Assembly: GCF_000372745.1 (NCBI RefSeq)
Contig: NZ_KB889675.1
Location: 204,388-268,387 of the forward strand
DNA from: Embleya scabrispora DSM 41855
GTDB lineage: Bacteria; Actinomycetota; Actinomycetes; Streptomycetales; Streptomycetaceae
DNA length: 64,000 nt
Direction: 5' to 3'
Both the position numbers and the translations under genes were made by a program. Position 1 is the first letter of the stretch, and every line of letters starts with the position of its first letter. Shown one piece after another: positions 46,263 to 64,000 of this stretch. The notes beneath the pieces were generated by a model. The model searched no databases. It saw nothing but the letters and a program-made list of their open reading frames with translations, and was not told the origin of the DNA.

Positions 46263-47663
46263 TCAGGCTGTGATGTTCCGCAGCTTGTCGTACAGATCCA
46301 GCACCGCCAGGCACAGCGGAACGACGGACACCATCAGCATGCCTTCGAGCACGTCCATCATCCGCCCCCAGAACGGGGACAGCCCGCGGGTGGGCACGGT
46401 GGTCGCGACGATCGCGAGCAGCGCGCCGACCGCGCACACCAGCGCGAAGATCCAGCCCTGGCGCTCCTTGTCCAGGAATCCGGTGTCCAGGGTCAGCCCG
46501 ATGAAGAGCATCGCCAGGCCGAGCAGGCCGGCCGTGTACAGCACGGTGACCTGCGTGGTGTGCCGGAACAGGCGAGCGCGACCGAGGGTGACCAGGGCCA
46601 GTACGGCGGTCAGGATCCGGGTCCACATGGTGTCGACGTTGCCCAGCACGACGCACGAGGCGACGATCACGGCGGCGCACGCCCCGGTGAGGCCGCTGAG
46701 CACCTCGTGCCCGTTGCGGGCGCGCGCGGCGACATCGGCGTGGTCCAGGGTGTCGCTCTGCCGGGCGGTGGGCGCGTCCGAGGGCAGGAAGCCGATCGGC
46801 AGGCGGGCGAGGCGGGCCGCCCAGGAGGGCAGGAAGGCGATCATCGCGATCGCGACGGTGCCGGCCACGGCCGCCGCCTCGCGCGGGCCGCTCTCGAAGG
46901 TGATCAGGCCGAAGGTGGCCAGCGTGCCGAGCGCGCCCGCGCCGGCGCCGGCGATGTAGACGGCACCGCGTTCCGGCAGCAGCGCGGCGATCAGCGTGGA
47001 GACCACCAGGACCGCGACGCAGGCGGTCAGGAACTGGACCCGTCCGGGACCCTCGCGCACCGGCGGCTCGATCGCACCCAGGCCGGCCAGGAAGGCGTTC
47101 GGCAGCGCGCCCAGGCCGAGCACGGCGCCGCCCACGTGGTCCCCGTACACCCGGGAGCGCACACCGGCGACCACGGTGAGCACCAGGGCCAGCGAGCCGC
47201 CGACGATGGCGGGCAGGCCGTGCGGCAGGGGGGTCATCCGCCAGAGCGCGATGGCGCCGAGGGTGAAGAAGGCAGCCGCACCGGACAGGCCGGCGATCCG
47301 CAACATCTCCGGCGTCCACAACCGGTTGTCGCCGGCGACCGAGGTGGCCACCGAGTCGGCCACGTCGTCGTAGACCGGCGGCGGCGGTGCGTCCGCGAGC
47401 GCGGTGAAGCGCAGCAACTCGCCGTCGCGCACGTTCTGCCCGGCCAGGGTGAGCGCACTGTCCAGGGGCTCGCCGTCGAACCGGGTGAGCTGGAAGCCGG
47501 TCACCGCGCCGTTGCGCTGGGTCTGTCCGGACAGCCGGAGTATCTCCGGGTACAGCTCCGCGAGCGGGACCTCTTCCGGCAGCGCGAGATCGACTCGGCA
47601 GTCCGGCGCGATGACGGTGATCCGGGCGAACCCGGTGGTGACCGTCGTGGTCGTGGAGTTCAC
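46263..47663 (-). CDS. eccD: EccD, type VII secretion integral membrane protein
   Basis: 466 residues. A ubiquitin-like N-terminal domain (ARITVIAPDCRVDLALPEEVPLAELYPEIL, about residues 12-90) and then eleven hydrophobic helices: the layout of EccD, which forms the membrane vestibule of the ESX core complex. The GTG at 47663 (VNSTTTTV) follows AGGGGGAT; a longer frame upstream is not conserved in type. It is divergent from eccC; a promoter is proposed at 47783-47810. It borders rpsO, as in Streptomyces coelicolor. Confidence 0.92.
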   Translation of the reverse strand: MNSTTTTVTTGFARITVIAPDCRVDLALPEEVPLAELYPEILRLSGQTQRNGAVTGFQLTRFDGEPLDSALTLAGQNVRDGELLRFTALADAPPPPVYDDVADSVATSVAGDNRLWTPEMLRIAGLSGAAAFFTLGAIALWRMTPLPHGLPAIVGGSLALVLTVVAGVRSRVYGDHVGGAVLGLGALPNAFLAGLGAIEPPVREGPGRVQFLTACVAVLVVSTLIAALLPERGAVYIAGAGAGALGTLATFGLITFESGPREAAAVAGTVAIAMIAFLPSWAARLARLPIGFLPSDAPTARQSDTLDHADVAARARNGHEVLSGLTGACAAVIVASCVVLGNVDTMWTRILTAVLALVTLGRARLFRHTTQVTVLYTAGLLGLAMLFIGLTLDTGFLDKERQGWIFALVCAVGALLAIVATTVPTRGLSPFWGRMMDVLEGMLMVSVVPLCLAVLDLYDKLRNITA

Positions 47664-47782
47664 CTGTGCAGATCCCCCTGCTTGTAGCTGCCCCGTGTCC
47701 CGCGGCCCCGAGGGGCCGGGATGACGACGCACTCTATACGCCGCGACACGGCTCACCACTGGCGTCGACGGGGTCGGCCAGT

Positions 47783-47810
47783 AGTATCGGCGCACACACG
47801 AACGGCTCAA
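47783..47810 (-). promoter_or_regulatory. Candidate eccD promoter
   Basis: On the minus strand TTGAGC (47810-47805) and GATACT (47788-47783), spacer 16, about 120 bases upstream of the eccD start. The rest of the 276-base divergent eccD/eccC region has a direct repeat CGGCTCAAC/CGGCTCACG and an AT-richer patch near 47850-47865, but no clear eccC promoter. Confidence 0.4.
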
Positions 47811-47939
47811 CCGGCTCACGTGTGCATGGAGACGACCCTGACGGGGTGGGTTGACTCACATAACCTGCTCCTTTTCCGTGCTCTGCGGCGGGCTCGATCC
47901 ATGTCCCAGGATCCTCGCGACGGATGAGGCTGATTCACC

Positions 47940-50900
47940 TTGACCGTGGTCATCGTCAAGCGCCCACCCAGGGTGCTGCCCTCTCCTGTGCCGGCGGAGG
48001 AGATCCAGCTCCAGGCGCCGCCCGAACTGGAGCGCCCCACCGACCAGAACTGGATCATGAGCGTGCTCCCGATGATGGGCATGCTCGGCTCGGCCGGCTT
48101 CTTCTTCATGCCCGGTGCGCCGAAGATGATGATGGTCATGGGCGGCATGATGATGGTCTCGTCGCTGGTCATGGTGGTCGCCAACATCATCAAGTCGCGT
48201 GGTGGCAACCGGGTTCAGATGCTCGATGCCCGACGCGACTACCTGAAGTACCTCGCCCAGCAGCGCAAGGAGGTCCGCCGGACCGCCCGCAAACAGCGCG
48301 ACGCGCAGTTGTGGACGCACCCGGACCCGGCGCAGCTGTGGTCGGTGGCGGCGGGCGAGCGGCGGATCTGGGAACGCCGAGCCGGTGACGCCGACTTCGC
48401 ACAGGTCCGGGTCGGCGTGGGCCAGCAGCAGTTGTCCACCCCGCTGGTGGCGCCGAGCACCGCGCCGCTGGAGGAACTGGAACCGCTGTGCGCGGACGCC
48501 ATGCGGCGCTTCCTGCGCACCCAGGCGACGCTGGACGATTTGCCGATGGCGGTGTCGCTGCGCTCCTTCTATCACCTGACCGTCTCCGGCGAGCCGGAGC
48601 GGGTGTACGGGCTGACCCGGGCGATGCTGGGCCAACTCGCGGTGCTGCACTCGCCGGACGACGTGCGCATCGTGGTGGCCACGGACGCCAACTCGCTGCC
48701 GCGCTGGGACTGGCTCAAGTGGCTGCCGCATGTGCAGCACCCGTCCCTGTCGGACGGCGCCGGTTCGGTCCGGATGATCGCGGGCGACCTCGGCGAGATC
48801 GAGGAGTGGCTGGCCGAGGACCTGGCCGGGCGCTCGCGCTTCGCGGCCGGCGCGCAGCCCGTGTTGGACCAGCCGCACCTGGTGGTGGTCCTGGACGGCG
48901 GCGGCGTGCCCGCCAACTCGCTGCTCGCGGGGGCGGACGGGTTGCAGGGCGTGACCATCGTCGAGGTGGTGCCCGGGCCGCTGGACGAACTGCGCGGCGG
49001 GCTGGCGATCATCGCCGAGGAGGACCGGCTGACGCTGGAGTCGACGGCGGGCGCGTACGAGGGGATGCCCGACTTCCTGTCGGCGGGCGATGCGGAGGCG
49101 CTCGCCCGGAAGTTGGCCCCGCTGCGGCTGTCGGCCAACGACGACGACGAGCCGCTGCTGGCCAACCTGGACTTCACCGACCTGATGGGCATCGGGGACG
49201 CGGCGCAGGTGGACGTGTCGCAGACCTGGCGGCCCAGGCCGCCGAACGACCGGCTGCGGGTGCCGATCGGGATCGGCCAGAACGGCGAGCCGATCATGCT
49301 GGACATCAAGGAAGCGGCGATGGAGGGCATGGGTCCGCACGGCCTGTGCGTCGGCGCCACCGGATCCGGCAAGTCCGAGCTGCTGCGCACCCTGGTGCTG
49401 GGCCTGGCCACCACGCACAGCTCGGAGATCCTCAACTTCGTGCTCGCCGACTTCAAGGGCGGCGCGACCTTCTCCGGGATGTCGGACATGCCGCACGTCG
49501 CGGCGGTGATCACGAACCTGTCCGACGACCTGACCCTGGTCGACCGCATGCGCGACTCGATCACGGGCGAGCTGAACCGGCGGCAGGAGCTGCTGCGGTC
49601 GGCGGGCAACTACGCCAACATGCACGACTACGAGCGGGCCCGGGTCGCGGGCGCCGCGCTGGAGCCGCTGCCCTCGCTGGTGATCATCATCGACGAGTTC
49701 AGTGAACTGCTCACCGCCAAGCCGGACTTCATCGACATGTTCATCCAGATCGGCCGCATCGGTCGATCGCTGGGCGTACACCTGCTGCTCGCGTCGCAGC
49801 GTCTGGAGGAGGGCCGGCTGCGCGGTCTGGACACGTATTTGTCCTACCGGATCGGTCTGCGCACCTTCTCCGCCGCCGAGTCGCGCGCGGCGATCGGCGT
49901 ACCGGACGCGTACCACCTGCCTTCCGTGCCCGGCGCGGGCTACCTCAAGTTCGACACCGAGTCGATGGTGCAGTTCAAGGCCGCGTACGTCTCCGGCACC
50001 TACCGGGCCTCCGACCGGGTGCGGCGCAACCAGTCGGGCGCACCCATGCCGGTGCTGTTCGGCAGTCGGTGGACGGCCGCGAACATGTGGAACCGGCAGC
50101 CCGATCTGCCGCCGGAGCCCGAGCCCGAGCCGGACATCGACAGCGCGCTCGCGGACACCGTGCTGGACGTGATCGTGCGCCGGATGGTCAACCAGGGTCC
50201 GCCCGCGCACCAGGTGTGGCTGCCGCCGCTGGCCGAGTCGAACTCGGTCGACCAGATGTTGCCGCCGCTGCAGGTCACTGCGGATCGTGGGCTCAGCTCG
50301 CCCGACTGGGGCGCGAACGGCCGTCTGGTGGTGCCGCTGGGCCTGGTGGACAAGCCGTTCGAGCAGCGCCGCGACGTGATGTACGCGGACCTGTCCGGCG
50401 CGGCCGGCCACGCGCTCGTCGTGGGTGGCCCGCGCAGCGGCAAGAGCACCCTGCTGCGCACCATGATCACCTCCTTCGCACTGACCCACACGCCGGCCGA
50501 AGTCCAGTTCTACGTACTGGACTTCGGCGGCGGTGGCATGGTCGCGTTGAGCGATCTGCCGCACGTGGGCGGGGTGGCGGGCCGGCTCGACGCCGAGCGG
50601 GTGCGCCGGATCGTCAGCGAGGTCAAGGGCATCCTGGACCGGCGCGAGGAGATGTTCCGGGTCAACAACATCGACTCGATCGACACGTTCCGCAGGCGCC
50701 GCGCCGCCGGGACGCTGCCGGACGAGGCGTGGGGCGACGTCTTCCTGCTCGTCGACGGCTGGTTGACGCTCAAGAACGACTTCGACGCACTCGAGGCCGA
50801 GGTCACCGACATCGCCACGCGGGGTCTGGGCTTCGGCGTGCACGTGGTGCTCACCGCGTCCCGGCACCCGGAGATCCGGCCCGCGCTCAAGGACCAGATC

Positions 50901-51890
50901 CAGACCCGGCTGGAGCTGCGGCTCGGCGAGACGATGGAGTCCGAGGTCGACCGGCGGCTCGCGGCGAACGTGCCCACGGGCGCGCCGGGTCGCGGCCTGT
51001 CCCCGGACAAGCTGCACTTCCTGGCCGCGCTGCCGCGGATCGACGGGTCCTCCTCGGCGGAGGACCTGGGCGAGGGCATGGCGGCCATGGTCGGCGCGAT
51101 CAAGGCCGCGTGGGCGGGGCCGCCCGCTCCCCCGGTGCGGGTGCTGCCGATGCTGCTGCCCTACGAGCAGTTGCCGACGCCCGCGCAGGTGCCCGGTCGG
51201 GCCATCCCGATCGGGGTGGACGAGGCGACGCTCAGCCCGGTGTACCTGGACTTCAACGTCGACACGAACTTCGTGCTGTTCGGCGAGAGCGAGTCCGGCA
51301 AGACCAACTTCCTGCGGCTGCTGGCACGCGGCATCTCCGAGCGGTACACGCCGGCCGAGGCCCGGATCATCGTGTCCGACTACCGGCGCACGCTCTTGGA
51401 CGTGGTCCCCGAGTCGCACCTGCTGGAGTACGCGGCGGCGGCTCCGGCCCTGACCTCGTTCATGAACGAGATCCGAGGCGGCATCGAACGCCGCCTGCCC
51501 GGACCGGAGGTGACCCAGGACCAGCTGCGCAACCGGAGCTGGTGGAGCGGCCCCGAGCTGTTCCTGCTGGTCGACGACTACGACCTGGTGGCCTCCTCGA
51601 GCGGCAACCCGGTCGGCACCATCGCCGAGTTCCTGCCGCTGGCCCGCGACGTCGGCCTGCACCTGATCATCGCCCGCAGCAGCGGCGGCGCGGGCCGCGC
51701 GCTGTACGAGCCGGTCCTGCAAAAGCTCCTCGACCTGGGCACGTCCGGCCTGATCCTGTCCGGCAACCGCGACGAGGGCGCCCTGATGGCCAACGTCAAG
51801 CCGGCCCAACTCCCTCCCGGACGCGGCCAGTTCATCACCCGCCGCCGAGGCGTCGAACTGATCCAGACGGCCTGGCTCGCGGAAACCTGA
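47940..51890 (+). CDS. eccC: EccC, type VII secretion FtsK/SpoIIIE-type ATPase (EccCa+EccCb fused)
   Basis: 1316 residues. Starts VIVKRPPR, typical of EccC; two Met-rich membrane helices at about 38-85; then three FtsK-type ATPase domains with Walker A GATGSGKS (472-479), GGPRSGKST (829-837) and GESESGKT (1115-1122). Walker B is complete in the first (VIIIDEF) but VDGW and VDDY in the second and third, matching the rule that the first domain hydrolyses ATP and the others bind substrate. It drives export of WXG100 proteins. The start is TTG; a GTG two codons later is also possible. A 16-bp terminator follows. Confidence 0.96.
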   Translation: MTVVIVKRPPRVLPSPVPAEEIQLQAPPELERPTDQNWIMSVLPMMGMLGSAGFFFMPGAPKMMMVMGGMMMVSSLVMVVANIIKSRGGNRVQMLDARRDYLKYLAQQRKEVRRTARKQRDAQLWTHPDPAQLWSVAAGERRIWERRAGDADFAQVRVGVGQQQLSTPLVAPSTAPLEELEPLCADAMRRFLRTQATLDDLPMAVSLRSFYHLTVSGEPERVYGLTRAMLGQLAVLHSPDDVRIVVATDANSLPRWDWLKWLPHVQHPSLSDGAGSVRMIAGDLGEIEEWLAEDLAGRSRFAAGAQPVLDQPHLVVVLDGGGVPANSLLAGADGLQGVTIVEVVPGPLDELRGGLAIIAEEDRLTLESTAGAYEGMPDFLSAGDAEALARKLAPLRLSANDDDEPLLANLDFTDLMGIGDAAQVDVSQTWRPRPPNDRLRVPIGIGQNGEPIMLDIKEAAMEGMGPHGLCVGATGSGKSELLRTLVLGLATTHSSEILNFVLADFKGGATFSGMSDMPHVAAVITNLSDDLTLVDRMRDSITGELNRRQELLRSAGNYANMHDYERARVAGAALEPLPSLVIIIDEFSELLTAKPDFIDMFIQIGRIGRSLGVHLLLASQRLEEGRLRGLDTYLSYRIGLRTFSAAESRAAIGVPDAYHLPSVPGAGYLKFDTESMVQFKAAYVSGTYRASDRVRRNQSGAPMPVLFGSRWTAANMWNRQPDLPPEPEPEPDIDSALADTVLDVIVRRMVNQGPPAHQVWLPPLAESNSVDQMLPPLQVTADRGLSSPDWGANGRLVVPLGLVDKPFEQRRDVMYADLSGAAGHALVVGGPRSGKSTLLRTMITSFALTHTPAEVQFYVLDFGGGGMVALSDLPHVGGVAGRLDAERVRRIVSEVKGILDRREEMFRVNNIDSIDTFRRRRAAGTLPDEAWGDVFLLVDGWLTLKNDFDALEAEVTDIATRGLGFGVHVVLTASRHPEIRPALKDQIQTRLELRLGETMESEVDRRLAANVPTGAPGRGLSPDKLHFLAALPRIDGSSSAEDLGEGMAAMVGAIKAAWAGPPAPPVRVLPMLLPYEQLPTPAQVPGRAIPIGVDEATLSPVYLDFNVDTNFVLFGESESGKTNFLRLLARGISERYTPAEARIIVSDYRRTLLDVVPESHLLEYAAAAPALTSFMNEIRGGIERRLPGPEVTQDQLRNRSWWSGPELFLLVDDYDLVASSSGNPVGTIAEFLPLARDVGLHLIIARSSGGAGRALYEPVLQKLLDLGTSGLILSGNRDEGALMANVKPAQLPPGRGQFITRRRGVELIQTAWLAET

Positions 51891-52598: not shown

Positions 52599-54173
52599 AT
52601 GGCGGAAACCGACTTCGAGGGCTTCACCCTCGAACAGTTGCAGGCCATGGTCGCCACGGCGAACCCTTCGGCGCTCGCCGGGTACGGACAAAAGCTCACC
52701 GGCGCGGCCGGGAAGATCACGACCGCCGCGGAGAACCTCGCGAGAATCGCCCGAGGCATGAGCGACGGTTGGCAGGGCGAGAGCGCGGACGCCTTCCAAC
52801 TGCTCGCCGGGCAACTGGTCGCGGCCACCAACGGCCTCGGCGACTACGCCAACGCTGCCGGCGGCCACATCAACCACGTCGGCGAGCAGATCTTCGTAGC
52901 CAAGCTGGGCATGCCCCGCGTCGACCCCACGACCCTGGCCAAGGCGAACGGGCCCGCCCCCGTCGTGCCCCCGGGCACACCACCGCCCGCCGACGGCGTG
53001 GACCCGGTCAAGGCCCACGCGGACGCCCAGGGCCAGGTGGAGGCAGCACGCCGCGAGGCGATCACGCGAATGCGCACCCTGGCGTCGACCTACCGCGTGG
53101 CGGCAACGGACCTCCAGGCAATCCCGGTGCCGGTGTTTCCGGGAGGGGATGAACGTGACGGTCGACATGGAGCCGTATCCATCGTTGGTCCCGGCTCCGG
53201 TAGCCCGGGCTCGGGTGGTTCAGGGTCGGGCGGAACTCCGGGTCCCCCGGCTTTCCGTGCCGGGGGTGGGGGCTCAAGCCCCGGAATCTACACAGCCCCT
53301 CCAGGTCACCTGCCGTCCGGCGGGACGACGAGCCCCGCCCCTATAAATGCACCTACTCCCTATGCGCCCCAAGTAACCAATCTCCAAGGAACTGGTTCGC
53401 TGACCGCGCCCGACTCGTCGATCGACAATCCATGGGCTCCCCAGCCTCCCGCCGGTGGGTCTGGCCCAGGCTCAACTACGGGAGGAAGTCCTCCCAGTGG
53501 AAATCTCCCAGGTGTTCCTCCGCTGTCGGGATCCGGTCCTGCTACCTCACCAGCCGGAAGTGGGCGCTACCCAGGCGGCCCTGGATTGCCTGTTATCGGA
53601 GGAGGCGGAAGGGGAGGAACTTCCGGCGGGAGTTCCGGAAGTGTGACTCCACGCAGCGGAGGCCCGTATGGGGGTCCTGTAGTCCCGCCCGGATCAACAC
53701 CGCGTAGTGGTGGCCCTCAAGTCGGTGGCGGACGAGGAGCCTTCAACACCCAGCCTGAGGCGCGTGGCCCCGGCGCGAGCAGCCCCAGCGGAGCCGGGGG
53801 AACAGGGTCGCCTGGCCGCACACCTGGCATGCCGGGAGCCCCGGGGGTTGGCGGTTCCGCTGGATCACCAATCAGCAGGGCTTCCGGAAGCAGGCTGGCA
53901 CACTCGCAGGGCGGTTCTGTCGGTAACGCTTCCGGAGCCGCCTCACGCCGAAACTCCCCTCGGTTGCAGGCACTACCCGCCGATGGATCCGCGCCTGAGC
54001 CAGCCGGTGCGGGAACACAGCAGCGCATGGCATCTTCCGGGCAACGCACCCCCTTCACTGGCGGCTCACGCTCCGAGCAGGTTCTGCGGCGTGCACCACG
54101 GCCGGAGGAGGACGACGACAATGTCTGGGACGGTCCCCGACGGCCGGGCGTCGTTCCACCTGTGATCGACTGA
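52599..54173 (+). CDS. Large WXG100-type protein with Gly/Pro/Ser-rich tail (putative ESX substrate)
   Basis: 524 residues. The first 190 residues are helical with the W-x-G turn in MSDGWQGESADAFQLL (about 55-70) and a second helical pair (ARREAITRMRTLASTYRVAA). Residues 195-490 are low-complexity Gly/Pro/Ser/Ala with repeated SGG, PGG and GPG; the C-terminus is acidic then VWDGPRRPGVVPPVID, an ending I associate with large Streptomyces ESX proteins. It is probably exported and surface located. Codon use shifts in the tail to ATA, AAT, CCT and TAT, rare in the rest of the window. Confidence 0.75.
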   Translation: MAETDFEGFTLEQLQAMVATANPSALAGYGQKLTGAAGKITTAAENLARIARGMSDGWQGESADAFQLLAGQLVAATNGLGDYANAAGGHINHVGEQIFVAKLGMPRVDPTTLAKANGPAPVVPPGTPPPADGVDPVKAHADAQGQVEAARREAITRMRTLASTYRVAATDLQAIPVPVFPGGDERDGRHGAVSIVGPGSGSPGSGGSGSGGTPGPPAFRAGGGGSSPGIYTAPPGHLPSGGTTSPAPINAPTPYAPQVTNLQGTGSLTAPDSSIDNPWAPQPPAGGSGPGSTTGGSPPSGNLPGVPPLSGSGPATSPAGSGRYPGGPGLPVIGGGGRGGTSGGSSGSVTPRSGGPYGGPVVPPGSTPRSGGPQVGGGRGAFNTQPEARGPGASSPSGAGGTGSPGRTPGMPGAPGVGGSAGSPISRASGSRLAHSQGGSVGNASGAASRRNSPRLQALPADGSAPEPAGAGTQQRMASSGQRTPFTGGSRSEQVLRRAPRPEEDDDNVWDGPRRPGVVPPVID

Positions 54174-54212: not shown

Positions 54213-55511
54213 ATGAGTGAACCCCCCTCCCGATCCGCCCGTTTGCCCTGCGTTCTCGGCATGCTCTTGGCTCTCCTCGTTCTCATCGGAAATCTGGCAC
54301 CTCCTGCCCAAGCGGAGTCCGTGCGCGCTCAACAGTGGTATCTGGATGTGTGGAAAATCGATGAGGTCTGGAAACTTGCCCGGGGGGCAGGGGTAACCGT
54401 CGCAGTGATCGACGGTGGAGTCGACGCCACGCATCCGGACCTGGTCGGCCAGGTTCAGTCCAGTTTGAATTCGCCGGGGGACTCGGACGGCCATGGCACC
54501 GGTATGGCCAGTCTCATCGCAGGGCAGGGACAAGCGGGCGGTGGCCAGGGCGTCTACGGCGTGGCGCCCGAGGCAAAGATCCTTCCCTTCAGGTCCGCAC
54601 GCACTCCCTCTGGCAAAATGGATCCGATCTCGACCGCAAAGGGAATTCGCCTTGCTGCCGATTCCTCGGCCCGCATCATAAATCTTTCCATTGGCGGCTC
54701 GGCTGGCAATCCAGTCGAACGCGAAGCTATTTCTTACGCTCTGAGCAAGGGGAAGCTGGTAGTTGCTGCCGGCGGCAACTCACCGGAAGACGTGAACGAT
54801 CAGCCGGTCTACCCTGCGTCCTATCCCGGAGTCTTGGCTATCAGCGCTTTGAGCCGTGAGGGGAAACCTGCCAGCAACAGCATCCGAGGACCATGGATCT
54901 CATTGTCGGCCCCCGGCGAAGAAATCCCTCACGCTTGCACGACAAGCACCCGCTACTGCAAAGGTGTTGGCTCCAGCGATGCCACCGCCCTCACCTCCGG
55001 CGTTGCCGCGCTCGTGTGGTCCGTGCATCCCGACTGGACTGCCAATCAGGTCATCCGGCGCCTTATCGACACCGCGAATCGGCCCAATGAGCCCGTGCCT
55101 TCGGACACCTTCGGGTACGGCGCCGTCAGCCCCCGCAAGGCCCTCGCCGCCACCGACACGCCCGGCCCCGCCGACGTCAACCCGCTGATCGGCGTGCGCG
55201 GCGACAAGCCCGCCCCCGCGACCACCGCGCCGAGCACATCGCCCTCGGCCGCCGCGTCGGCGCCGGCCGCACCCGCCGGCACCGCTCCTCCCGCAGCCAC
55301 CGCCGACAAGTCCGGCGACGACGACAATCTCCTCGTCCCGATCCTGGTCGGCACCATCGCCGCGGCCGCCCTCGTCGCCGGCGCCACCGTCATCACCATG
55401 CGCCGCCGCAGAGCCCGCGAACTCGCCCGCCGGCAAGCCGCCGCCGCACCCCCCTGGCCCACCGCACCGCCGACCTACCACCCCGGCGGCGGCCCGTACG
55501 ATCGGCGTTGA
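54213..55511 (+). CDS. mycP: Mycosin (subtilisin-like S8 protease of type VII secretion), first copy
   Basis: 432 residues. A signal peptide (about 1-34) leads to an S8 domain with Asp67 in VAVIDGGVD, His94 in DGHGTGMAS, the oxyanion Asn189 in AAGGNS and Ser255 in VGSSDATALTSG. A Thr/Pro/Ala linker and a C-terminal membrane helix (about 370-390) are typical of MycP, which cuts ESX substrates and stabilises the secretion complex. The serine site reads GSSDAT rather than the usual GTSFAT. Gene body up to about 55130 has lower GC and unusual codons. Follows the WXG100-type gene by 39 bases. Confidence 0.9.
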   Translation: MSEPPSRSARLPCVLGMLLALLVLIGNLAPPAQAESVRAQQWYLDVWKIDEVWKLARGAGVTVAVIDGGVDATHPDLVGQVQSSLNSPGDSDGHGTGMASLIAGQGQAGGGQGVYGVAPEAKILPFRSARTPSGKMDPISTAKGIRLAADSSARIINLSIGGSAGNPVEREAISYALSKGKLVVAAGGNSPEDVNDQPVYPASYPGVLAISALSREGKPASNSIRGPWISLSAPGEEIPHACTTSTRYCKGVGSSDATALTSGVAALVWSVHPDWTANQVIRRLIDTANRPNEPVPSDTFGYGAVSPRKALAATDTPGPADVNPLIGVRGDKPAPATTAPSTSPSAAASAPAAPAGTAPPAATADKSGDDDNLLVPILVGTIAAAALVAGATVITMRRRRARELARRQAAAAPPWPTAPPTYHPGGGPYDRR

Positions 55512-56210: not shown

Positions 56211-57443
56211 TCAACCCCTTCCGGGGCCTGCCTTCCCGCGCCGGCGGGCGTCGCGGATGACGATCGCGGTGCAGATGACGACGATGGTCAGGCCGATGGC
56301 CATGAACAGGACCACCGACGCCTGGCGGCGGTCGCGGTCGGCTCGGGTGGGGCCGTGGGCCAGGGGGGCGACGTTGACGAGTTCGGTGCTGCGGTCGACC
56401 TTGGGGTCGGGGACCGGGGCGGACGCGGGGACCACCGTGGAGCTGAGGGCGCGCAGCGGGTCGACCACGCCCCAGCCGACGCCGTCCACGTGACCCGGGG
56501 CGCCGCGCTGCGCGGTCTGTTCGATCAGCGTGATCACCTGGGCCGCGGTGTAGGTCGGGTGCGCCGAGCGGATCAGCGCCGCGACGGCGGCCACGTACGG
56601 GGTCGCGAAGGAGGTGCCGTTGCCGCTGCAGTGGCCGCCCTTGGGCACCGTCGACCACATGTCCACGCCCGGGGCCAGCACGCCCACGTAGGGCTTGTTC
56701 TGCGAGAACGGCGCCCGCTCGTTGTTGCGGTCGGAGGCGCCGACGCCCAGGACGCCGGGATACTTCGCCGGCCACGAGTCGAGGTTGTCCTTGTCGCCGG
56801 AGTTGCCCGCGGCGGCGACCACGACCACCTGCTTGGCGATCGCCCGCTGCACCGCGTCGCGCAGCTTGACGCCCGGCTCCTGGCCGCCCACCGTGTCCTG
56901 CGAGATGTTGATCACCGTGGCGCCCCCCGCCACCGCGAAGTCGATCGCCGCGGCCAGGCTGTCCTCGTTGCCCTTCGTCGCGTCGTCGCCGCCGTTCTGC
57001 CGGATCGGCAACAACTTCGCGTCGGGCGCCAGACCCACGAAGCCCGTGTCGAGCACGGGGGTCAGCCGACTGCCGGGTCGGGCCGCGATGATGCCCGCGG
57101 CCATCGTGCCGTGGCCGTGGGTGTCGTCGGTACCGTCGGCCTTGTCGTTGAAGAAGTCCTTGCCGGGCACGATCGCCGGACCCAACTGCGGGTTGTCGTT
57201 GTCGATTCCGCTGTCGATCACCGCGACCGTGACGCCGTCGCCGGTGGACTTCTGCCAGAGCTCGTCGAGCAGTACACGCTGCAGCGACCATGGCTTGCCG
57301 GGCATCGGCTTGGAGGGGTACACACATTCGCCCGCGAGCAGCTCGGTGTCCACCGGCCCGCCATCGACCGCCCCCGACCCGGCCGGCAGCAGCAGGCCAA
57401 GCGCGAGAAGAGGTGCCGTCCACCGTCGCCGCACGGGTCGCAT
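56211..57443 (-). CDS. mycP: Mycosin (S8 protease of type VII secretion), second copy
   Basis: 410 residues. A signal peptide ends near GSGAVDG; the S8 domain has VAVIDSGID, THGHGTMAAG, VVVAAAGNSG and a canonical serine site GNGTSFATPYVAA. A linker and one C-terminal membrane helix (VVLFMAIGLTIVVICTAIVI) with a basic tail close it, as in MycP. It differs from the first copy in sequence and has normal GC-rich codon use. ATG 57443 is chosen; a GTG nine codons earlier is possible. It lies after the WXG100 genes and a strong terminator, so it has its own promoter. Confidence 0.9.
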   Translation of the reverse strand: MRPVRRRWTAPLLALGLLLPAGSGAVDGGPVDTELLAGECVYPSKPMPGKPWSLQRVLLDELWQKSTGDGVTVAVIDSGIDNDNPQLGPAIVPGKDFFNDKADGTDDTHGHGTMAAGIIAARPGSRLTPVLDTGFVGLAPDAKLLPIRQNGGDDATKGNEDSLAAAIDFAVAGGATVINISQDTVGGQEPGVKLRDAVQRAIAKQVVVVAAAGNSGDKDNLDSWPAKYPGVLGVGASDRNNERAPFSQNKPYVGVLAPGVDMWSTVPKGGHCSGNGTSFATPYVAAVAALIRSAHPTYTAAQVITLIEQTAQRGAPGHVDGVGWGVVDPLRALSSTVVPASAPVPDPKVDRSTELVNVAPLAHGPTRADRDRRQASVVLFMAIGLTIVVICTAIVIRDARRRGKAGPGRG

Positions 57444-57550
57444 CGGTTCGTTCGCCTTCCGGATCACCACCGACCGGCCCCGGACTCCCGGGCCGGCCTG
57501 GCCTGTCGTGTGGATGTCCCCGGCCCCCGTGAGACCGATGACGGACGCGG

Positions 57551-57735: not shown

Positions 57736-58023
57736 TCAGTGCCACATCTTGGCGTTGGACGCCTCGGTCTGGCGGTACGCGTCGGCCGCACGCATCAGGC
57801 CGTCGGCGATGCCGTTGAGCGCGTCCTGCAGACCCTGCGCGTTCTGGTCCCAGCTCGCCTGCTGGACGAGGTAACCCTCGCGCGCGTCACCGGACCACGA
57901 CTCGGTGACCGGCGAGATGTCCCGCTTCAGACCCGACTGCATGTCGGCGAGACGGGCGTTGAGGGCGCGAATATCGGCTGCGGCCTGTTCGAGCGCAGCA
58001 AAAGTGACAACTACCTGCGACAT
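57736..58023 (-). CDS. WXG100 family protein (EsxA/EsxB-like), second gene of the pair
   Basis: 95 residues, exact family size. Two helices are joined by the W-x-G turn in VTESWSGDAREGY (about residue 43). It is the second of a two-gene unit; WXG100 pairs form a helical heterodimer exported by EccC. In S. coelicolor the EsxA-EsxB dimer is secreted and involved in sporulation. I cannot say from sequence which of the two corresponds to EsxA. It ends in NAKMWH. Confidence 0.92.
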   Translation of the reverse strand: MSQVVVTFAALEQAAADIRALNARLADMQSGLKRDISPVTESWSGDAREGYLVQQASWDQNAQGLQDALNGIADGLMRAADAYRQTEASNAKMWH

Positions 58024-58123: not shown

Positions 58124-58429
58124 TCAGAACATCAACTTCGAGATGTTGCCGGACACGGTCGTCTCGGTCTGGTCGTACGAGTTGGCGTTGTGGCCCATGG
58201 CCCCGGAAATGGCGTCCAGAGCGCGCTTGACACCGAGCGCCTTCTGTACGGCCTGTTCCTGCAGCGGGTCGAACTGGTTCCTGGCAGCGCCCTGCCACTG
58301 ACCCTCGATCGCATCGACCTTGCGGTTCATCTCCTGGATGGCCGCTTCGAGGTCGGTCGCCACGCCCTGAACCTTCTTCGACAACTCCGCCAACATCTGC
58401 GGAGTGATCTTGAACGCTTCACCTGCCAT
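58124..58429 (-). CDS. WXG100 family protein (EsxA/EsxB-like), first gene of the pair
   Basis: 101 residues. ITPQMLAELSKKVQGVATDLEAAIQEMNRKVDAIEGQWQGAARNQF has helix one and the W-Q-G turn (about residue 45); helix two ends in SYDQTETTVSGNISKLMF. The motif YxxxT/E near the C-terminus (YDQTE) fits the YxxxD/E secretion signal of one partner in each ESX pair. A promoter and inverted repeat lie upstream. 100 bases separate it from the second WXG100 gene. Confidence 0.93.
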   Translation of the reverse strand: MAGEAFKITPQMLAELSKKVQGVATDLEAAIQEMNRKVDAIEGQWQGAARNQFDPLQEQAVQKALGVKRALDAISGAMGHNANSYDQTETTVSGNISKLMF

Positions 58430-58715: not shown

Positions 58716-60194
58716 TCAGGAACCCTGTGGCTTCTTGGCATCGGCCGTGCTCAATTGCGGCCCTCTCGAGACCAGTTCGGACCACGCCCGGGGCAACGGC
58801 TTGACCTCCACGCCCTTGTAGCCCAGCCGCTGCTTCGCCTCGCTGTCCTGGTTCGGTCCGGCCGGCGCGCCGCCGGCCTGCGCCTCCTCCGGCACGCTGT
58901 AGCGCAGTCCCGAGTCGGCCACCAGGTACGTCGGACCACCCTCGTCGGGCGTCCCGGTCACCTCGCGATACAGCGCTCCCGCACCGGGCTTGACCCACAC
59001 ACCGCCCATACCGTCGACGAGTTGCTCCGGCGGCCGGGTACCGGCGGACTGCGTGGTCACCGGCTGGATGCCGCGCCACTCGCCGGAGAAGGTGTTGCAC
59101 ACCACGTTGCGCGGCAACTCCAGGTCGTTGCGCGTCATCCGGTTCATCGGCGTCGGCGGGATCTCCGGCCAGCCCTTGTCCGCGGCGAACGTACGGTCCT
59201 GCACCACGGCGCCGCCGAGCGTGCCGATGTTGACCGGGAAGGCGGTGGGCGTGGTGTTCCCGTACGCCTCCCTCGCCCTGGGGTTCGTGGTCAGCAGCAC
59301 GGCGGTCAGCTCGCTGACCGGCATCACGCCCTCCTTGGTGACCACGTAGTTCTGCCGCTGGGCACTGCCCTCCGCGCGCAGCACGATGCCGACCTTGTTG
59401 TACTCCCCGGCCAGTGGCAGTTGGGTCGGCTTGCCGTAGTCGGCCGGCATCGGGTGGTCGATGGTGCCGCCGTCGATCAGCGTCGCCAGCCACGCGTCGC
59501 TGACCGGTTGCGCGGGTGCGCCGCCCAGGTTCAGCGCACCGATCACCGTGGGCGTCTCGGTCACGAAGCGCTTGCCCTGGTAGACGAGGTACTTGTGCTG
59601 GGCCCGGTCCTGCACGAACAGCGCCTCGCCCGGCCGCAGCGCACCGTCCGCGGGAGCCGCGCCGATGAACACGCTGCGCTGCGGCTCGCCGGCCGGGTCG
59701 GGCTTGCCGTCCTTGCCCAGGGCCGGCCGCTCGCACACGGTCCAGGACTTGCGCTCCTTGACCTCCTTGGCCGTCGGCAGCCGGTCCGGTGCGTTCGGGA
59801 TGCCCAGCGGCGCGCCGTGGCTGACGCTGTTGAGCTGCTTCTCCGGGACCATGTTGACCTTGAACTTGCCCGGGTCCAACAGCAGTCGGCCGGAGGCGAT
59901 GTTGAGCACCGGGTGCAGCTTGCCATCGAGGAAGACGTACCGGCTCGCCGAGTCGCGGCCCACGATCAGGCTGCTCTTGTCCTTCCAACCGGGCGGCGTC
60001 CCGGGCTTGATCAGCCCGACCACCCCGAACCCGACCAGCACCAGCATCGCGACCACGATGCTCGGCGTGACCATGCGCATCGGCTTGGGCGCGTTCTCCT
60101 CGCTGCCACCGCCCGGAGCCGGTTGCAGGAACGCGGCCACCATGCGGCGCCGCGCGAAGATGTACGCCTCAAGTTGCTCGCGGCGCGATGCCAT
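58716..60194 (-). CDS. eccB: EccB, type VII secretion membrane-anchored protein
   Basis: 492 residues. The conserved N-terminal MASRREQLEAYIFARRRMVAAFLQP precedes a single membrane helix (about 48-68) and a large periplasmic-side repeat domain with LVGRDSASRYVFLDGKLHPVLNIASGRLLL, the EccB hallmark; a pair of cysteines (VCERP, VCNTF) matches the disulfide known in EccB. It forms the outer part of the ESX core complex. ATG 60194 follows GGGGAGAACG. The stop is 287 bases before the WXG100 pair, on the same strand; divergent from eccE. Confidence 0.95.
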   Translation of the reverse strand: MASRREQLEAYIFARRRMVAAFLQPAPGGGSEENAPKPMRMVTPSIVVAMLVLVGFGVVGLIKPGTPPGWKDKSSLIVGRDSASRYVFLDGKLHPVLNIASGRLLLDPGKFKVNMVPEKQLNSVSHGAPLGIPNAPDRLPTAKEVKERKSWTVCERPALGKDGKPDPAGEPQRSVFIGAAPADGALRPGEALFVQDRAQHKYLVYQGKRFVTETPTVIGALNLGGAPAQPVSDAWLATLIDGGTIDHPMPADYGKPTQLPLAGEYNKVGIVLRAEGSAQRQNYVVTKEGVMPVSELTAVLLTTNPRAREAYGNTTPTAFPVNIGTLGGAVVQDRTFAADKGWPEIPPTPMNRMTRNDLELPRNVVCNTFSGEWRGIQPVTTQSAGTRPPEQLVDGMGGVWVKPGAGALYREVTGTPDEGGPTYLVADSGLRYSVPEEAQAGGAPAGPNQDSEAKQRLGYKGVEVKPLPRAWSELVSRGPQLSTADAKKPQGS

Positions 60195-60362: not shown

Positions 60363-61643
60363 GTGGCCGCACCCACGCCGGTAGGGACGCATCGGCAGAC
60401 CCGCCCACCCACACCCGACGGGACGTCACCACCGGCCCCGCAGCGCGCCGTCATGCGGGTGCACCCGCGCGCCGGCCGCATCGGCGGCGTCCTGGTGCAG
60501 CAGATCGTGCTGATCCAACTCGGGGTACTGCTGGTCGCGATCGGACTGGCCACGAATGTGGCGGCGTTGATCGGTCTCGGCGCCCTCGCGGTGCTGCTCG
60601 TGGGGCCCGCCCTGGTGCGGCTGCGCGGACGCTGGCTCGTGCAGTGGTTGCCGATCCTGTTCGACTTCCGCCGCCGGCACCGGATGCCGGCCGTCCCGGA
60701 CGACGCGGATCCGGTCCTGGTCCCGGTTCTGGAGTGTGCGCCGCATTTGGTGACGAGTTCGGTCACCGACCGCGAGCGCCGCTCCATCGGACTGATCGGC
60801 GACGGCACCTTCCTCACCGCCGTGCTGTTGGTCACCTCGCGCGACGAGCCGCTGCGCCCCTCGCGCGCGCAACGACCGTTGCCGCTGCCCACGATCGTGA
60901 GCACGCTGGAGGTCGACGACGTGACGTTGGCCTCGGTCCAGGTGGTCCAGCACACCCAGCCGGCGCCGGCCACCCATCTGCCCGAGGAGGCGCTGGCCAC
61001 CCGGTCGTATCGCCAACTCGTCGAGCAGGGACTGCACGACGTGCCGGCGCTGCGCCTGACCTGGATCGCGCTGCGCTTCGAGCCCGAACTGTGCGCGGGA
61101 GCGGTCGCCGCCCGCGGTGGCGGCGAGGAGGGGGCCCAGCGTGCCCTGCTGCGCGCGGTCAACCAACTGGCCGGCAACCTGACCGGCGCCGGTTTCGAGG
61201 CCCGCGCGCTGGAGGAGGCCGAGCTGATCCAGGCGCTCGCCACCTCGTGCAGCGTGAACCGCACCACCCGCCAGTACGGACGCGGCGGCCGGCGAACCAC
61301 CGAGTCCAAGCGGGCATGGCGCTGCGACGACCGGTGGCACACCACCTACTGGGCCAACCGCTGGCCGCAGCTGACCCAGGGCCGCACCTCCGACCTGGTG
61401 GGCGCGCTGACCGCGACACCGGCGATCGCCACCACCTTCGCGCTGACCGCGACGCACGGCGTGGGCGGCACCACCGCGCTCACCACACACGTCCGGATCG
61501 CCGCCCGTTCCGGCAGCGAACTCGCGGACGTGACAAAGCAGTTGGAACGCCGAGCCCGAGCCGAGAAGATCGGCCTGACCCGGCTCGACTGGGAGCAGCA
61601 ACCGGCCCTGCTGGCCACCCTGCCGCTCGGCGGCCTGTCGTGA
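60363..61643 (+). CDS. eccE: EccE, type VII secretion membrane protein
   Basis: 426 residues. Two membrane helices near residues 35-80 (VLVQQIVLIQLGVLLVAIGLA and the next segment) precede a soluble domain with WLPILFDFRRRHRM, the typical EccE arrangement; EccE lies at the edge of the core complex. The GTG at 60363 (VAAPTPVG) has GGGGGA upstream; an ATG 31 codons later (MRVHPRAG) is an alternative. Divergent from eccB with 168 bases between. The longer frame to its left is only antisense to eccB. Confidence 0.88.
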   Translation: MAAPTPVGTHRQTRPPTPDGTSPPAPQRAVMRVHPRAGRIGGVLVQQIVLIQLGVLLVAIGLATNVAALIGLGALAVLLVGPALVRLRGRWLVQWLPILFDFRRRHRMPAVPDDADPVLVPVLECAPHLVTSSVTDRERRSIGLIGDGTFLTAVLLVTSRDEPLRPSRAQRPLPLPTIVSTLEVDDVTLASVQVVQHTQPAPATHLPEEALATRSYRQLVEQGLHDVPALRLTWIALRFEPELCAGAVAARGGGEEGAQRALLRAVNQLAGNLTGAGFEARALEEAELIQALATSCSVNRTTRQYGRGGRRTTESKRAWRCDDRWHTTYWANRWPQLTQGRTSDLVGALTATPAIATTFALTATHGVGGTTALTTHVRIAARSGSELADVTKQLERRARAEKIGLTRLDWEQQPALLATLPLGGLS

Positions 61644-61683: not shown

Positions 61684-62526
61684 GTGAGCACGACCAACGC
61701 CGGCCGGGGCCGACGCCGGGCCCCGAACGTGCGGAGCAACAACCGCAATCCGAACCCGCCGCCCGCCCCCACACCGAACCCCACGCCCGGCGCGGGTACT
61801 CCGGTGCCGCGGCCCTCGCGGCGCAAGGGCCTGGCCCGCCTGGTCGGACCCAGACACGAGCGGCACGTGCTGACCACCGCCCAATTGCCCGCCCTCGGCC
61901 TGCCGGTGGGCGACGACGGCGTGGTGATCGGCGTCGATCCCGAGCGCAACCCGGCGGTGCTCGGCCTGTTCCGGCCCGAGCCGTTGGACGTCGCGTTCGT
62001 CGGCGGCGCCTACGTGGTGCAGATCATCGCGCTGCGGGCCGCGGCGATCGGCGCGCGAGTCGCGATCGAGTCCGGTCGTCCGCAGTTGTGGTCCGCGATG
62101 GCCCAGGCCGCGGGCGGCGCCCAGCCGTGCGTGACGGTGCATCAGGTGGGCCGGCTCGGCCCGCAGGGCCCCACTGCCGGCAGTCCGGTCCTGGTCATCC
62201 GCGACTGCGGCGCACGTCCGCCGCGCAATCGGCTCGCGCCGGCCGCGTGGCAGACCACGCTGACCCTGCTGCCGTTCCTGGACCCGGCGCAGGCGCGGCA
62301 GCGGATCGGTGTGGGCGCGGGTCTGGTCGGCATCCAGCGGGTCTCCCCGATCGAGGCCCAGGCCGCCGCGTCGGTACTGTCCCTGCCCGGCGAGGACGAG
62401 GCCGCGTTGCCCACGCTCGCCGACGAACTGACCCTGTGGAGCACCAGGAAGTCGCGCAAGTACGTGCTGCTGACGCCCACTCGGGCCGAGGCCGACCTGC
62501 TCGGGTCGCCGCGGCGGATGGACTGA
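61684..62526 (+). CDS. ESX-associated protein resembling a Walker-A-less EccC domain
   Basis: 280 residues. After a Pro/Asn-rich first 55 residues comes VVIGVDPERNPAVLGLF...LDVAFVGGAYVVQIIALRAAAIGARVAI. This aligns by eye with the third EccC domain, PIGVDEATLSPVYLDF...NFVLFGESESGKTNFLRLLAR, but the P-loop lysine/threonine are replaced (GGAYVVQI). The rest (TLTLLPFLDPAQARQRIGVGAG, TRKSRKYVLLTPTRAEADLL) could be later strands of the fold. Homologues sit beside eccE in Streptomyces ESX loci; role unknown. GTG 61684 is seven bases after GGGGAGG, 40 bases from eccE. Confidence 0.6.
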   Translation: MSTTNAGRGRRRAPNVRSNNRNPNPPPAPTPNPTPGAGTPVPRPSRRKGLARLVGPRHERHVLTTAQLPALGLPVGDDGVVIGVDPERNPAVLGLFRPEPLDVAFVGGAYVVQIIALRAAAIGARVAIESGRPQLWSAMAQAAGGAQPCVTVHQVGRLGPQGPTAGSPVLVIRDCGARPPRNRLAPAAWQTTLTLLPFLDPAQARQRIGVGAGLVGIQRVSPIEAQAAASVLSLPGEDEAALPTLADELTLWSTRKSRKYVLLTPTRAEADLLGSPRRMD

Positions 62527-62708: not shown

Positions 62709-64000
62709 GTGAGCAGCGAGCAGGACGGCGCGCACATCGAGCCGGGGGCCGACGAGGAAGAGGAGTGGTCGGGACCCGACTTCACCATGCCCTCGTGGTA
62801 CACGCACCAGGACGGCGGCGCGCCCGCGCCACCACCGTCCGGGGTCGGCGCGCCCGCACCCCCTCGGCAGGGTGGGCAGGTGCCGGCGACGCCCCGGTAC
62901 GGCAGTGAAGACGCGACGCTGGTGCCACCCGCGCGGACGCCCGACCCGCACGCACCGCTGCCGTACGGGGCCGACCCCGGCTCGGGTGGGCCCGCCGGTG
63001 CCGCCCCGGGCCCGTACGGATCCGGCGCGGGCACGCCCGGACCGGCATCGATGCCGCCGGCCCGCCCGGCGGACGCCCCGCCCGGCTACGGCGCCCCGGC
63101 GACCGAGCCACCCGCCGGCCCGCCTGCCGCGCACCAGCCTCCGCCCGAGCCCTACGGCGTCGATCACGCCGCATCGCATCCGGCCGACCCGCGACCTCCG
63201 TACGACACCGGCGCCCCCGCGCAGCCGAGCGCCCCGCCCGTCGGCGAACCGCACGGGTTCGGCGTGCCCTCGGGCGACGCGGGCGGTGTCGTGCCGCCTC
63301 GGTACACCTCACCCGAGCCCTCGGCACCGCTCCCGTACGGCACGCCCTCGGCCGAACAGCCCCCCACCGAACCGCCGGCCGGCCCGAACCCGGCCTTCAC
63401 CCCGGGCGAGCAGACCATGGTCGTACCACCGTCCGTCGACCAGGGCCGTCCCACCGAGGACCCGGCCGGTCCGCCGCCCTTCACCCCCGGCGAGCCGACC
63501 GTGGTCGTGCCACCGGCGGTCGACCATGGCCGACCCGCCGCCGACCCGCGCGAGAGCGGGGCCGCCGGCGAACCCACCGCGCCGACCGCCGAGTCGGACC
63601 CCCGGGGCCCGGACCGAGCCGAGCAGGCCCCGCCCGCCACCCGGCCGGAGGACGCCGCTTCCGCCGAGCAGCCGCCGGCGGCTCCCGCTCCGCCGAACGA
63701 CGCCGGCCCGGGGCTCGACGCCGAGCCGGCCGCACCCACCGATCCCGTCGGGGACGCCCGGCCCGCCGAGCAGCCGTCCGATGCGGCGCCCGCACCCGAC
63801 GCGGTCGACCACGCGCCCCCGAACACGCCGTTCGATCCGAGCGACGTGCCCACCACACCCGCCGGCGGCACGCCGATCCCCGGCCTGTCCACCACCGGAG
63901 GGGCCCCCGAGGCACCCCACGCGGAGCCCGCCGAGGCGCCCGCCGACCCCGCGCCGCCACACGCGCCCGAGCCGCCGAGGTACGACACCCACCCGCCGTA
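62709..64000 (+). CDS. Proline-rich N-terminal region of a large ESX-locus protein (possibly MinD/ParA-like), runs off the right edge
   Basis: 430 residues are visible, frame open to the end. The first 30 residues are acidic then WSGPDFTMPSWYTHQDGG; everything after is Pro/Ala/Gly/Asp low complexity with PPRY, PYG and GEP patterns. In Streptomyces ESX loci and in mycobacterial EspI a MinD/ParA-like ATPase with a long Pro-rich N-terminus occurs at this place, so this gene is probably of that type; the ATPase domain would be outside the window. GTG 62709 follows GGAAGG at eight bases. Confidence 0.65.
   Translation, partial: MSSEQDGAHIEPGADEEEEWSGPDFTMPSWYTHQDGGAPAPPPSGVGAPAPPRQGGQVPATPRYGSEDATLVPPARTPDPHAPLPYGADPGSGGPAGAAPGPYGSGAGTPGPASMPPARPADAPPGYGAPATEPPAGPPAAHQPPPEPYGVDHAASHPADPRPPYDTGAPAQPSAPPVGEPHGFGVPSGDAGGVVPPRYTSPEPSAPLPYGTPSAEQPPTEPPAGPNPAFTPGEQTMVVPPSVDQGRPTEDPAGPPPFTPGEPTVVVPPAVDHGRPAADPRESGAAGEPTAPTAESDPRGPDRAEQAPPATRPEDAASAEQPPAAPAPPNDAGPGLDAEPAAPTDPVGDARPAEQPSDAAPAPDAVDHAPPNTPFDPSDVPTTPAGGTPIPGLSTTGGAPEAPHAEPAEAPADPAPPHAPEPPRYDTHPP
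63375..63548 (+). repeat. Duplicated 28-residue unit in the proline-rich protein
   Basis: PAGPNPAFTPGEQTMVVPPS followed by VDQGRPTED is repeated as PAGPPPFTPGEPTVVVPPA followed by VDHGRPAAD; the two FTPGE begin at 63396 and 63480, 84 bases apart. A simple tandem duplication. Confidence 0.85.

Follow-up and report, generated by a model that had tools for sequence, protein, structure and literature searches.

The protein encoded next to eccE in the ESX locus of the window, the whole 64,000-nucleotide stretch of DNA analyzed here, is very probably the C-terminal half of EccE, and EccE and this protein together would make up one split VirB4-type ATPase whose motor is dead. EccE is a core subunit of the type VII secretion system (T7SS). 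Three lines of evidence carry this reading: occurrence of the gene with eccE, fusion of the domain to EccE in related bacteria, and the likeness of both parts to VirB4 in structure models and sequence profiles.

The gene and its locus

The window gene lies at 61684–62526 (+). It encodes 280 amino acids from a GTG start to a TGA stop, with GGAGG upstream of the start, and eccE ends 40 nt upstream of it. Its homologs, their alignment (A1), and the core of the AF2 model support annotation as a putative detached EccE C-terminal domain, a degenerate VirB4-type ATPase domain. Searches of Pfam and NCBIfam with the window protein matched zero models, and a search of PDB sequences gave no match. The A1 profile scored at chance level only against the PDB, where its hits were UDP-GlcNAc 2-epimerases, an electron-transfer flavoprotein, and adenosylhomocysteinase at E 0.16 or worse. 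A description of the gene was not found in the available portions of the literature on S. coelicolor ESX locus tags. The genome that contains the window is 11.4 Mb in size. Among the named relatives scanned the closest is Embleya hyalina, whose version of the window protein is 89% identical.

The N-terminal 64 residues (61684–61875, +) are Pro-rich, variable in length, and unconserved in A1. Their pLDDT block means of 37–54 suggest that this segment is probably disordered. The fused EccE chains described below have a short linker at this place.

The neighboring genes form a T7SS locus. eccE (60363–61643, +; TIGR03923 E 2.1e-55, PF11203 E 2.6e-28) encodes 426 amino acids with two hydrophobic segments and a cytosolic domain like the VirB4 N-terminal domain. 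eccC (47940–51890, +; TIGR03924, TIGR03925) encodes 1316 amino acids with the domains DUF, D1, D2, and D3. On the opposite strand are eccD (46263–47819, −; PF19053 E 6.9e-89, with PF08817 and TIGR03920 over cut-off) and eccB (58719–60194, −; TIGR03919 E 5.4e-63), the start of which is provisional, the frame continuing to 60392. Two WXG100 proteins are encoded at 58124–58429 (−; PF06013 E 6.8e-17) and 57736–58023 (−; PF06013 E 9.7e-20), and a mycosin, a MycP-type protease, at 56211–57470 (−; TIGR03921 over cut-off). A second mycosin-like protease is encoded on the other strand of the same locus at 54213–55511 (+), just below the TIGR03921 cut-off (277.3 versus 278.75 bits). A 524-residue frame at 52599–54170 (+), between eccC and this mycosin-like gene, has a weak N-terminal WXG100 match under cut-off (E 0.0011), a sequence feature by which it could be a T7SS substrate. 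The gene downstream of the window gene (62709–64000, continuing past the window; L224:204–4172) begins with a long Pro-rich stretch, after which comes a MinD/ParA-type ATPase domain at residues 988–1226 of its open frame.

Occurrence with eccE and fusion to EccE

Homologs of the window gene are present in 4/4 genomes of the genus, its own genome counted. Across the Streptomycetaceae the gene was found in 82 of 101 genomes (best 24 candidates scored per genome), and EccE scored over its cut-off in the same 82 (best 18 candidates scored per genome). At E 0.001, EccE matched in 84 of the 101 genomes. The two matches below cut-off are one inside a SCO6880-family gene (G023) and a short one with an internal stop (G074). 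The best pairs of gene and eccE lie on one contig and the same strand in 82/82 genomes, with match ends −118 to 176 nt apart; these distances come from the best match per genome, where G034 and G073 had extra pieces, and the count of 82 includes the G073 copy, which contains stops. Overlaps of 1 or 4 nt, which are typical of coupled genes, were seen in 51 of the 63 distinct eccE–gene pairs. Homolog starts were chosen by a script rule, and one gap of −304 is a start error. An EccC relative was found in 41/41 genomes searched, and the window gene in 34 of those 41. Presence of the gene matches that of EccE and not that of EccC, which indicates that it goes with EccE, although genomes of one family are non-independent trials.

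Alignment A1 contains 41 homologs and shows a Pro-rich, variable start and a strongly conserved core. dN/dS was 0.10–0.19 in six ortholog pairs with the first 60 codons excluded. These values and the presence of the gene in 82 of 101 genomes indicate that it is real and working. One relative, H1, lies at NZ_CP081497.1:1454496–1455200, on a 2.8 Mb replicon of Streptomyces sp. BHT-5-2 that is listed as a plasmid, with no annotated feature beneath the match.

The A1 profile also found the domain outside the Streptomycetaceae (best 6 candidates scored per genome). Several lineages carry it at the C-terminal end of a longer chain (∼470–640 residues, starts being provisional) whose first part is EccE by TIGR03923. 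This model scored over cut-off in four of the five fused chains scanned and under it in L119 (71.9 bits). Neither TIGR03923 nor PF11203 covers the domain, and in the scanned fused chains too the models end before it. In alignment A2 the window EccE ends with LATLPLGGLS, where the fused chains continue into the domain.

Profile A3, built from the fused and split alignment, located the domain at 81 places in 67 of 394 Actinomycetia genomes (best 7 candidates scored per genome). An EccE match lies upstream within 600 nt in 79 of the 81, and the widest gap among the non-Streptomycetaceae matches listed is 578 nt (G314). The two domains with no adjoining EccE match are in G211 and G393:C53. This count used all 81 domain matches and 136 of the 150 EccE matches listed (best 5 candidates scored per genome); the 14 left out are probable SCO6880-family genes, ∼500-residue frames that score 42–47 bits, under cut-off. 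An automatic rule assigned 31 of the 79 adjoining domains to one chain with EccE, alignment added two more (L113 and L114), and the rest are separate genes. The rule scored G281 and G190 as split, and they are actually one chain. In a tree of 42 domains, a starred branch separates 23 fused rows of one family (f4) from the 17 split rows, and two fused f37 rows fall with the split ones; the label "fused" of L125 (G211) comes from reading its sequence, which has no EccE model match. Second, divergent EccE and domain pairs, under the EccE cut-off, were seen at G043:C1:4489635–4491349 and G097:C16:826108–827780. These may belong to another kind of ESX system.

The domain is absent at 57 of the 136 EccE matches used, among those listed. 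Genus g20 accounts for 56 of these and G281 for the remaining one; g20 genomes have up to five EccE matches each, five being the number scored. Of the domain-less EccE genes, two match proteins of known structure, namely EccE5 from ESX-5 (395 bits) and EccE3 from ESX-3 (261 bits). The EccE chains in the solved ESX-3 and ESX-5 structures are thus paralogues that lack the domain. ESX-3 and ESX-5 EccE correspond to the same N-terminal protein, but their chains in the PDB, 285–400 residues long, stop about where the C-terminal domain would start. The domain is therefore dispensable in some T7SS.

Predicted fold, nucleotide site, and relationship to VirB4

The AF2 model of the window protein has a core of about residues 80–275 with block mean pLDDT of 77–97, and 146 residues have pLDDT of at least 90. 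When the 280-residue model was searched by itself with Foldseek, no structure reached E 0.001; VirB4 came closest, at 2.3e-3. VIA-align, which compared only chains ranked high by Foldseek, superimposed the model on VirB4 (4ag6) with Z 18.3 and 2.9 Å over 197 residues. HerA, FtsK, and EccC domains gave Z 13–15, among them EccC ATPase 3 (4n1a, residues 1085–1315) with Z 13.8 and 3.1 Å over 178 residues. The window protein is thus predicted to have an FtsK/HerA-superfamily ATPase fold without a P-loop. The sequence-only reading of this DNA had anticipated a RecA/FtsK-type fold, and structure prediction returned that fold, not an unrelated one.

The nucleotide site is degenerate. The dead Walker A site is assigned to GGAYVVQ, residues 107–113 (62002–62022, +), from A1 columns and a weak profile-alignment register. 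G107 and Q113 are invariant in 41/41 A1 rows, and the Walker A Lys and Ser/Thr are absent. The window protein contains no [AG]-x4-GK[ST], and G-x4-GK[ST] occurs in none of 121 domain sequences, duplicates included, compared with 46 of 48 VirB4-like sequences. The loss of the P-loop Lys and Thr had been read from the sequence at the outset and extends to all of these homologs. A Walker-B-like strand, VLVIRD, is placed at residues 169–174 (62188–62205, +) by A1 invariants, an AF2 strand, and a global profile alignment, in which it is aligned to FLVEEAW of the VirB4-like ATPases. D174 is invariant in A1, and the second VirB4 acid is missing. With the Walker A loop lost, the domain should neither bind nor hydrolyze ATP, and we infer from the sequence that the window protein works without ATP hydrolysis. 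The invariance of G107, Q113, R118, R173, and D174 around the old site would also suit a remodeled pocket that still binds nucleotide or another ligand and acts as a sensor. We regard this as unlikely: the Walker A Lys and Ser/Thr are missing in 121/121 sequences, about five loop residues are lost, and the invariant residues may just hold the fold or the EccE interface.

A natural fusion, L113 (621 residues), was modeled as well. Its AF2 model, for which the input combined rows of fused chains with rows holding EccE or the domain separately, had a pTM of 0.80. Its top 14 Foldseek matches were all R388 VirB4/TrwK (E 2.3e-12 to 6.9e-8), followed by EccE3 (1.5e-5), with no further match reaching E 0.001. 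Whole-chain TM-scores against VirB4 were low, 0.33–0.40 on the query and 0.37–0.40 in the best rows, because the angle between the two domains differs. By VIA-align, residues 111–616 of the fusion superimposed on whole TrwK with Z 20.6 over 439 residues at 9.7 Å, and the fusion superimposed on TrwK 15–416 with Z 20.0 at 3.6 Å over 271 residues. The rule of the tool counts VirB4 (Z 20.6) and EccE3 (Z 19.9) as a tie. In these models EccE and the window domain both appear VirB4-like. VirB4 (R388 TrwK; Thermoanaerobacter 4ag5/4ag6) has the same two-part plan of an N-terminal domain and a RecA-like motor domain. It differs in that the parts here are two genes in a T7SS locus with no Walker A, and the window domain is smaller, aligning over 194–197 residues with a VirB4 C-terminal construct of about 375. 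EccC ATPase 3 itself resembles VirB4, according to the available part of one report (PMC6954902), so the ancestor cannot be named from the fold alone.

Sequence profiles link EccE to the SCO6880 family, whose genes adjoin VirB4-like ATPase genes. In NCBIfam the window EccE scores weakly, below the cut-offs, against the SCO6880 family (E 1.8e-8) and against a family of VirB4-like ATPases (E 5e-4). In profile–profile comparisons, EccE aligned with a first SCO6880-family group at probability 98.7 and E 2.7e-16 over 310 columns, and with a second group (L170:2619–4040, 15 rows) at probability 99.1 and E 1.2e-18 over 335 columns. Thirty shuffles of EccE gave probabilities of no more than 0.4 against the first group. 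SCO6880-family genes scored over cut-off in 41/41 Streptomycetaceae genomes searched. At L168 in the same genome as the window, a SCO6880-family gene is directly followed by an ATPase gene with the P-loop GESGNGKS; this ATPase passes Pfam AAA_10 and P-loop_TraG and matches the TraC and VirB4 models under cut-offs. Outside the window, at L168:2635–5446 and L170:2619–5714, SCO6880-family genes are paired with genes for VirB4-like ATPases that have an intact P-loop. This genome has three SCO6880-family matches over cut-off plus the weak one in eccE itself. One Streptomycetaceae genome (G020) has 18 such matches, some of them pieces of one frame, and the other 40 have 1–6, sub-cut-off matches included.

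The window domain has its own, partial link to these ATPases. Weak A1 hits (E 0.001–0.007) point to the ATPase gene downstream of the SCO6880-family gene in this genome and in the two others checked. Aligned by hhalign with one group of SCO6880-adjacent VirB4-like ATPases, A1 gave probability 92.5 and E 4.7e-7 over 77 C-terminal columns only, corresponding to the C-terminal segment at residues 203–280 (62290–62523, +). Forty column shuffles gave probabilities of no more than 1.5 and E of at least 0.035, and the reversed profile gave 0.2. A second VirB4-like group matched the same region at probability 3.5 and E 0.012. The first half of the domain matched the VirB4-like ATPases weakly (probability 9.6, E 0.0034) in the expected register, which places the two Gly residues of GGAYVVQ at the P-loop and implies a loss of about five residues there; the same register is obtained with A3 against both ATPase groups.

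A different account accepts the window protein as the C-terminal domain of EccE and treats it as a generic FtsK/HerA-superfamily domain that was fused independently and is not a VirB4 relic. It gains from the Z scores of 13–15 to HerA, FtsK, and EccC domains and from the description of ESX-3 EccE3, in the accessible text of PMC6986878, as weakly glycosyltransferase-like with no obvious ligand or catalytic site. This is distinctly unlikely, since the EccE-matching SCO6880-family genes adjoin VirB4-like ATPase genes in the same order and VirB4 is the best Foldseek match of the fused model.

Descent from the EccC DUF domain, which is ATPase-like with a shortened P-loop, is very unlikely. The EccC5 DUF is similar in having an ATPase fold that has lost Walker A within a T7SS; the available sections of PMC11154593 describe it as a degenerate ATPase domain whose Walker A lacks one residue. 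A3 matched the EccC DUF (E 0.0063) as well as it did the VirB4-like ATPases (E 0.0064, range 0.006–0.007), so that A3 did not sharpen the link. The DUF is part of EccC, however, and A1 does not match it: the probability is 0.4, against 92.5 for one VirB4-like group. EccE itself is like the VirB4 N-terminal domain, and a VirB4 origin therefore accounts for both halves together.

The sequence-only reading had proposed that the protein derives from the third ATPase domain of EccC and acts as a free adaptor for WXG100 proteins, on motifs that are largely in place: IGVD at residue 82 (nt 61927), NPAVLGLF, and LDVAFVGGAYVVQIIALRAA at residue 101 (nt 61984), with a spacer after IGVD, PER, of three residues and not two. 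The free-standing, degenerate ATPase-like domain beside eccE stands, but the derivation was rejected on sequence and is highly improbable, because the short motif likeness at IGVD and the P-loop site and the common superfamily fold (Z 13.8 to EccC ATPase 3) are set against a resemblance to D3 at chance level (BLASTP best E 2.3, to the EccC of the window; hhalign probability 0.6, E 0.1), an occurrence that tracks EccE (34/41 genomes for the gene, 41/41 for an EccC relative), and fusion of the domain to EccE in relatives. Against DUF, D1, D2, and D3 alike, A1 stayed at chance level (probability no more than 0.6). The window protein comes from a separate gene and not from an EccC chain after D1 and D2, and the eccC of the window is complete. 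None of these results specifically supports a direct role with WXG100 substrates, although one may exist.

Proposed role and related systems

In the preferred reading, a split VirB4-type ATPase, EccE would be the membrane-anchored N-terminal domain and the window protein the RecA-like motor domain stripped of its Walker A loop. According to the available text of PMC8131196, the ESX-5 hexamer carries six copies of EccE, which sit on EccD at its cytosolic periphery, and in one state the EccC motor domains line up beside EccE. If EccE bore a dead motor domain, that domain would adjoin the EccC motors. By this analogy each EccE would bind one copy of the window protein at the cytosolic rim of the complex, which on the ESX-5 count makes six copies per machine. 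There the protein would offer the EccC motor domains a non-hydrolyzing surface for docking and regulation. We infer a docking or regulatory role near EccC, and most likely the domain would dock EccC or steady the rim, comparable to the structural role that the available part of PMC11154593 suggests for the degenerate DUF domain of EccC5.

Pairs of an EccE-like and a VirB4-like part exist elsewhere. S. coelicolor CmdB/CmdC and SCO6878/SCO6880 likewise combine, in one operon, a SCO6880-type (EccE-like) protein with a VirB4-like ATPase. The accessible text of PMC2782261 calls CmdB VirB4-like and needed for sporulation, describes SCO6878 and SCO6880 as similar to cmdB and cmdC, and reports that a cmdB mutant was not complemented by CmdB carrying changes at K90 or at K404. 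The loss of complementation marks CmdB as a working ATPase-type protein, and it differs from the window protein in this and in lying outside a T7SS locus. L168 is likely the cmd cluster. In the EccE3-HerA proteins of CoCoNuT systems, according to the available part of PMC11090510, an EccE3-like domain is fused to a VirB4-like ATPase domain. These proteins differ in that they are an ATPase addition to Type III-A CoCoNuTs, in defense-type loci with no WXG100 genes nearby. As far as the available text goes, they are an independent sighting of the EccE-like/VirB4-like domain pair, and this paper is the closest published statement. In the open-access literature, as far as its text was available and with most subscription papers and preprints outside this scope, T7SS EccE was nowhere described as VirB4-like or as having a second domain. 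What is most likely new is a split, catalytically dead VirB4-type ATPase as a T7SS subunit. In Streptomyces the second half of EccE is its own gene, so it can be deleted separately and tested directly. This relationship may mean that the type VII secretion machine evolved in part from a VirB4-type DNA-transfer motor.
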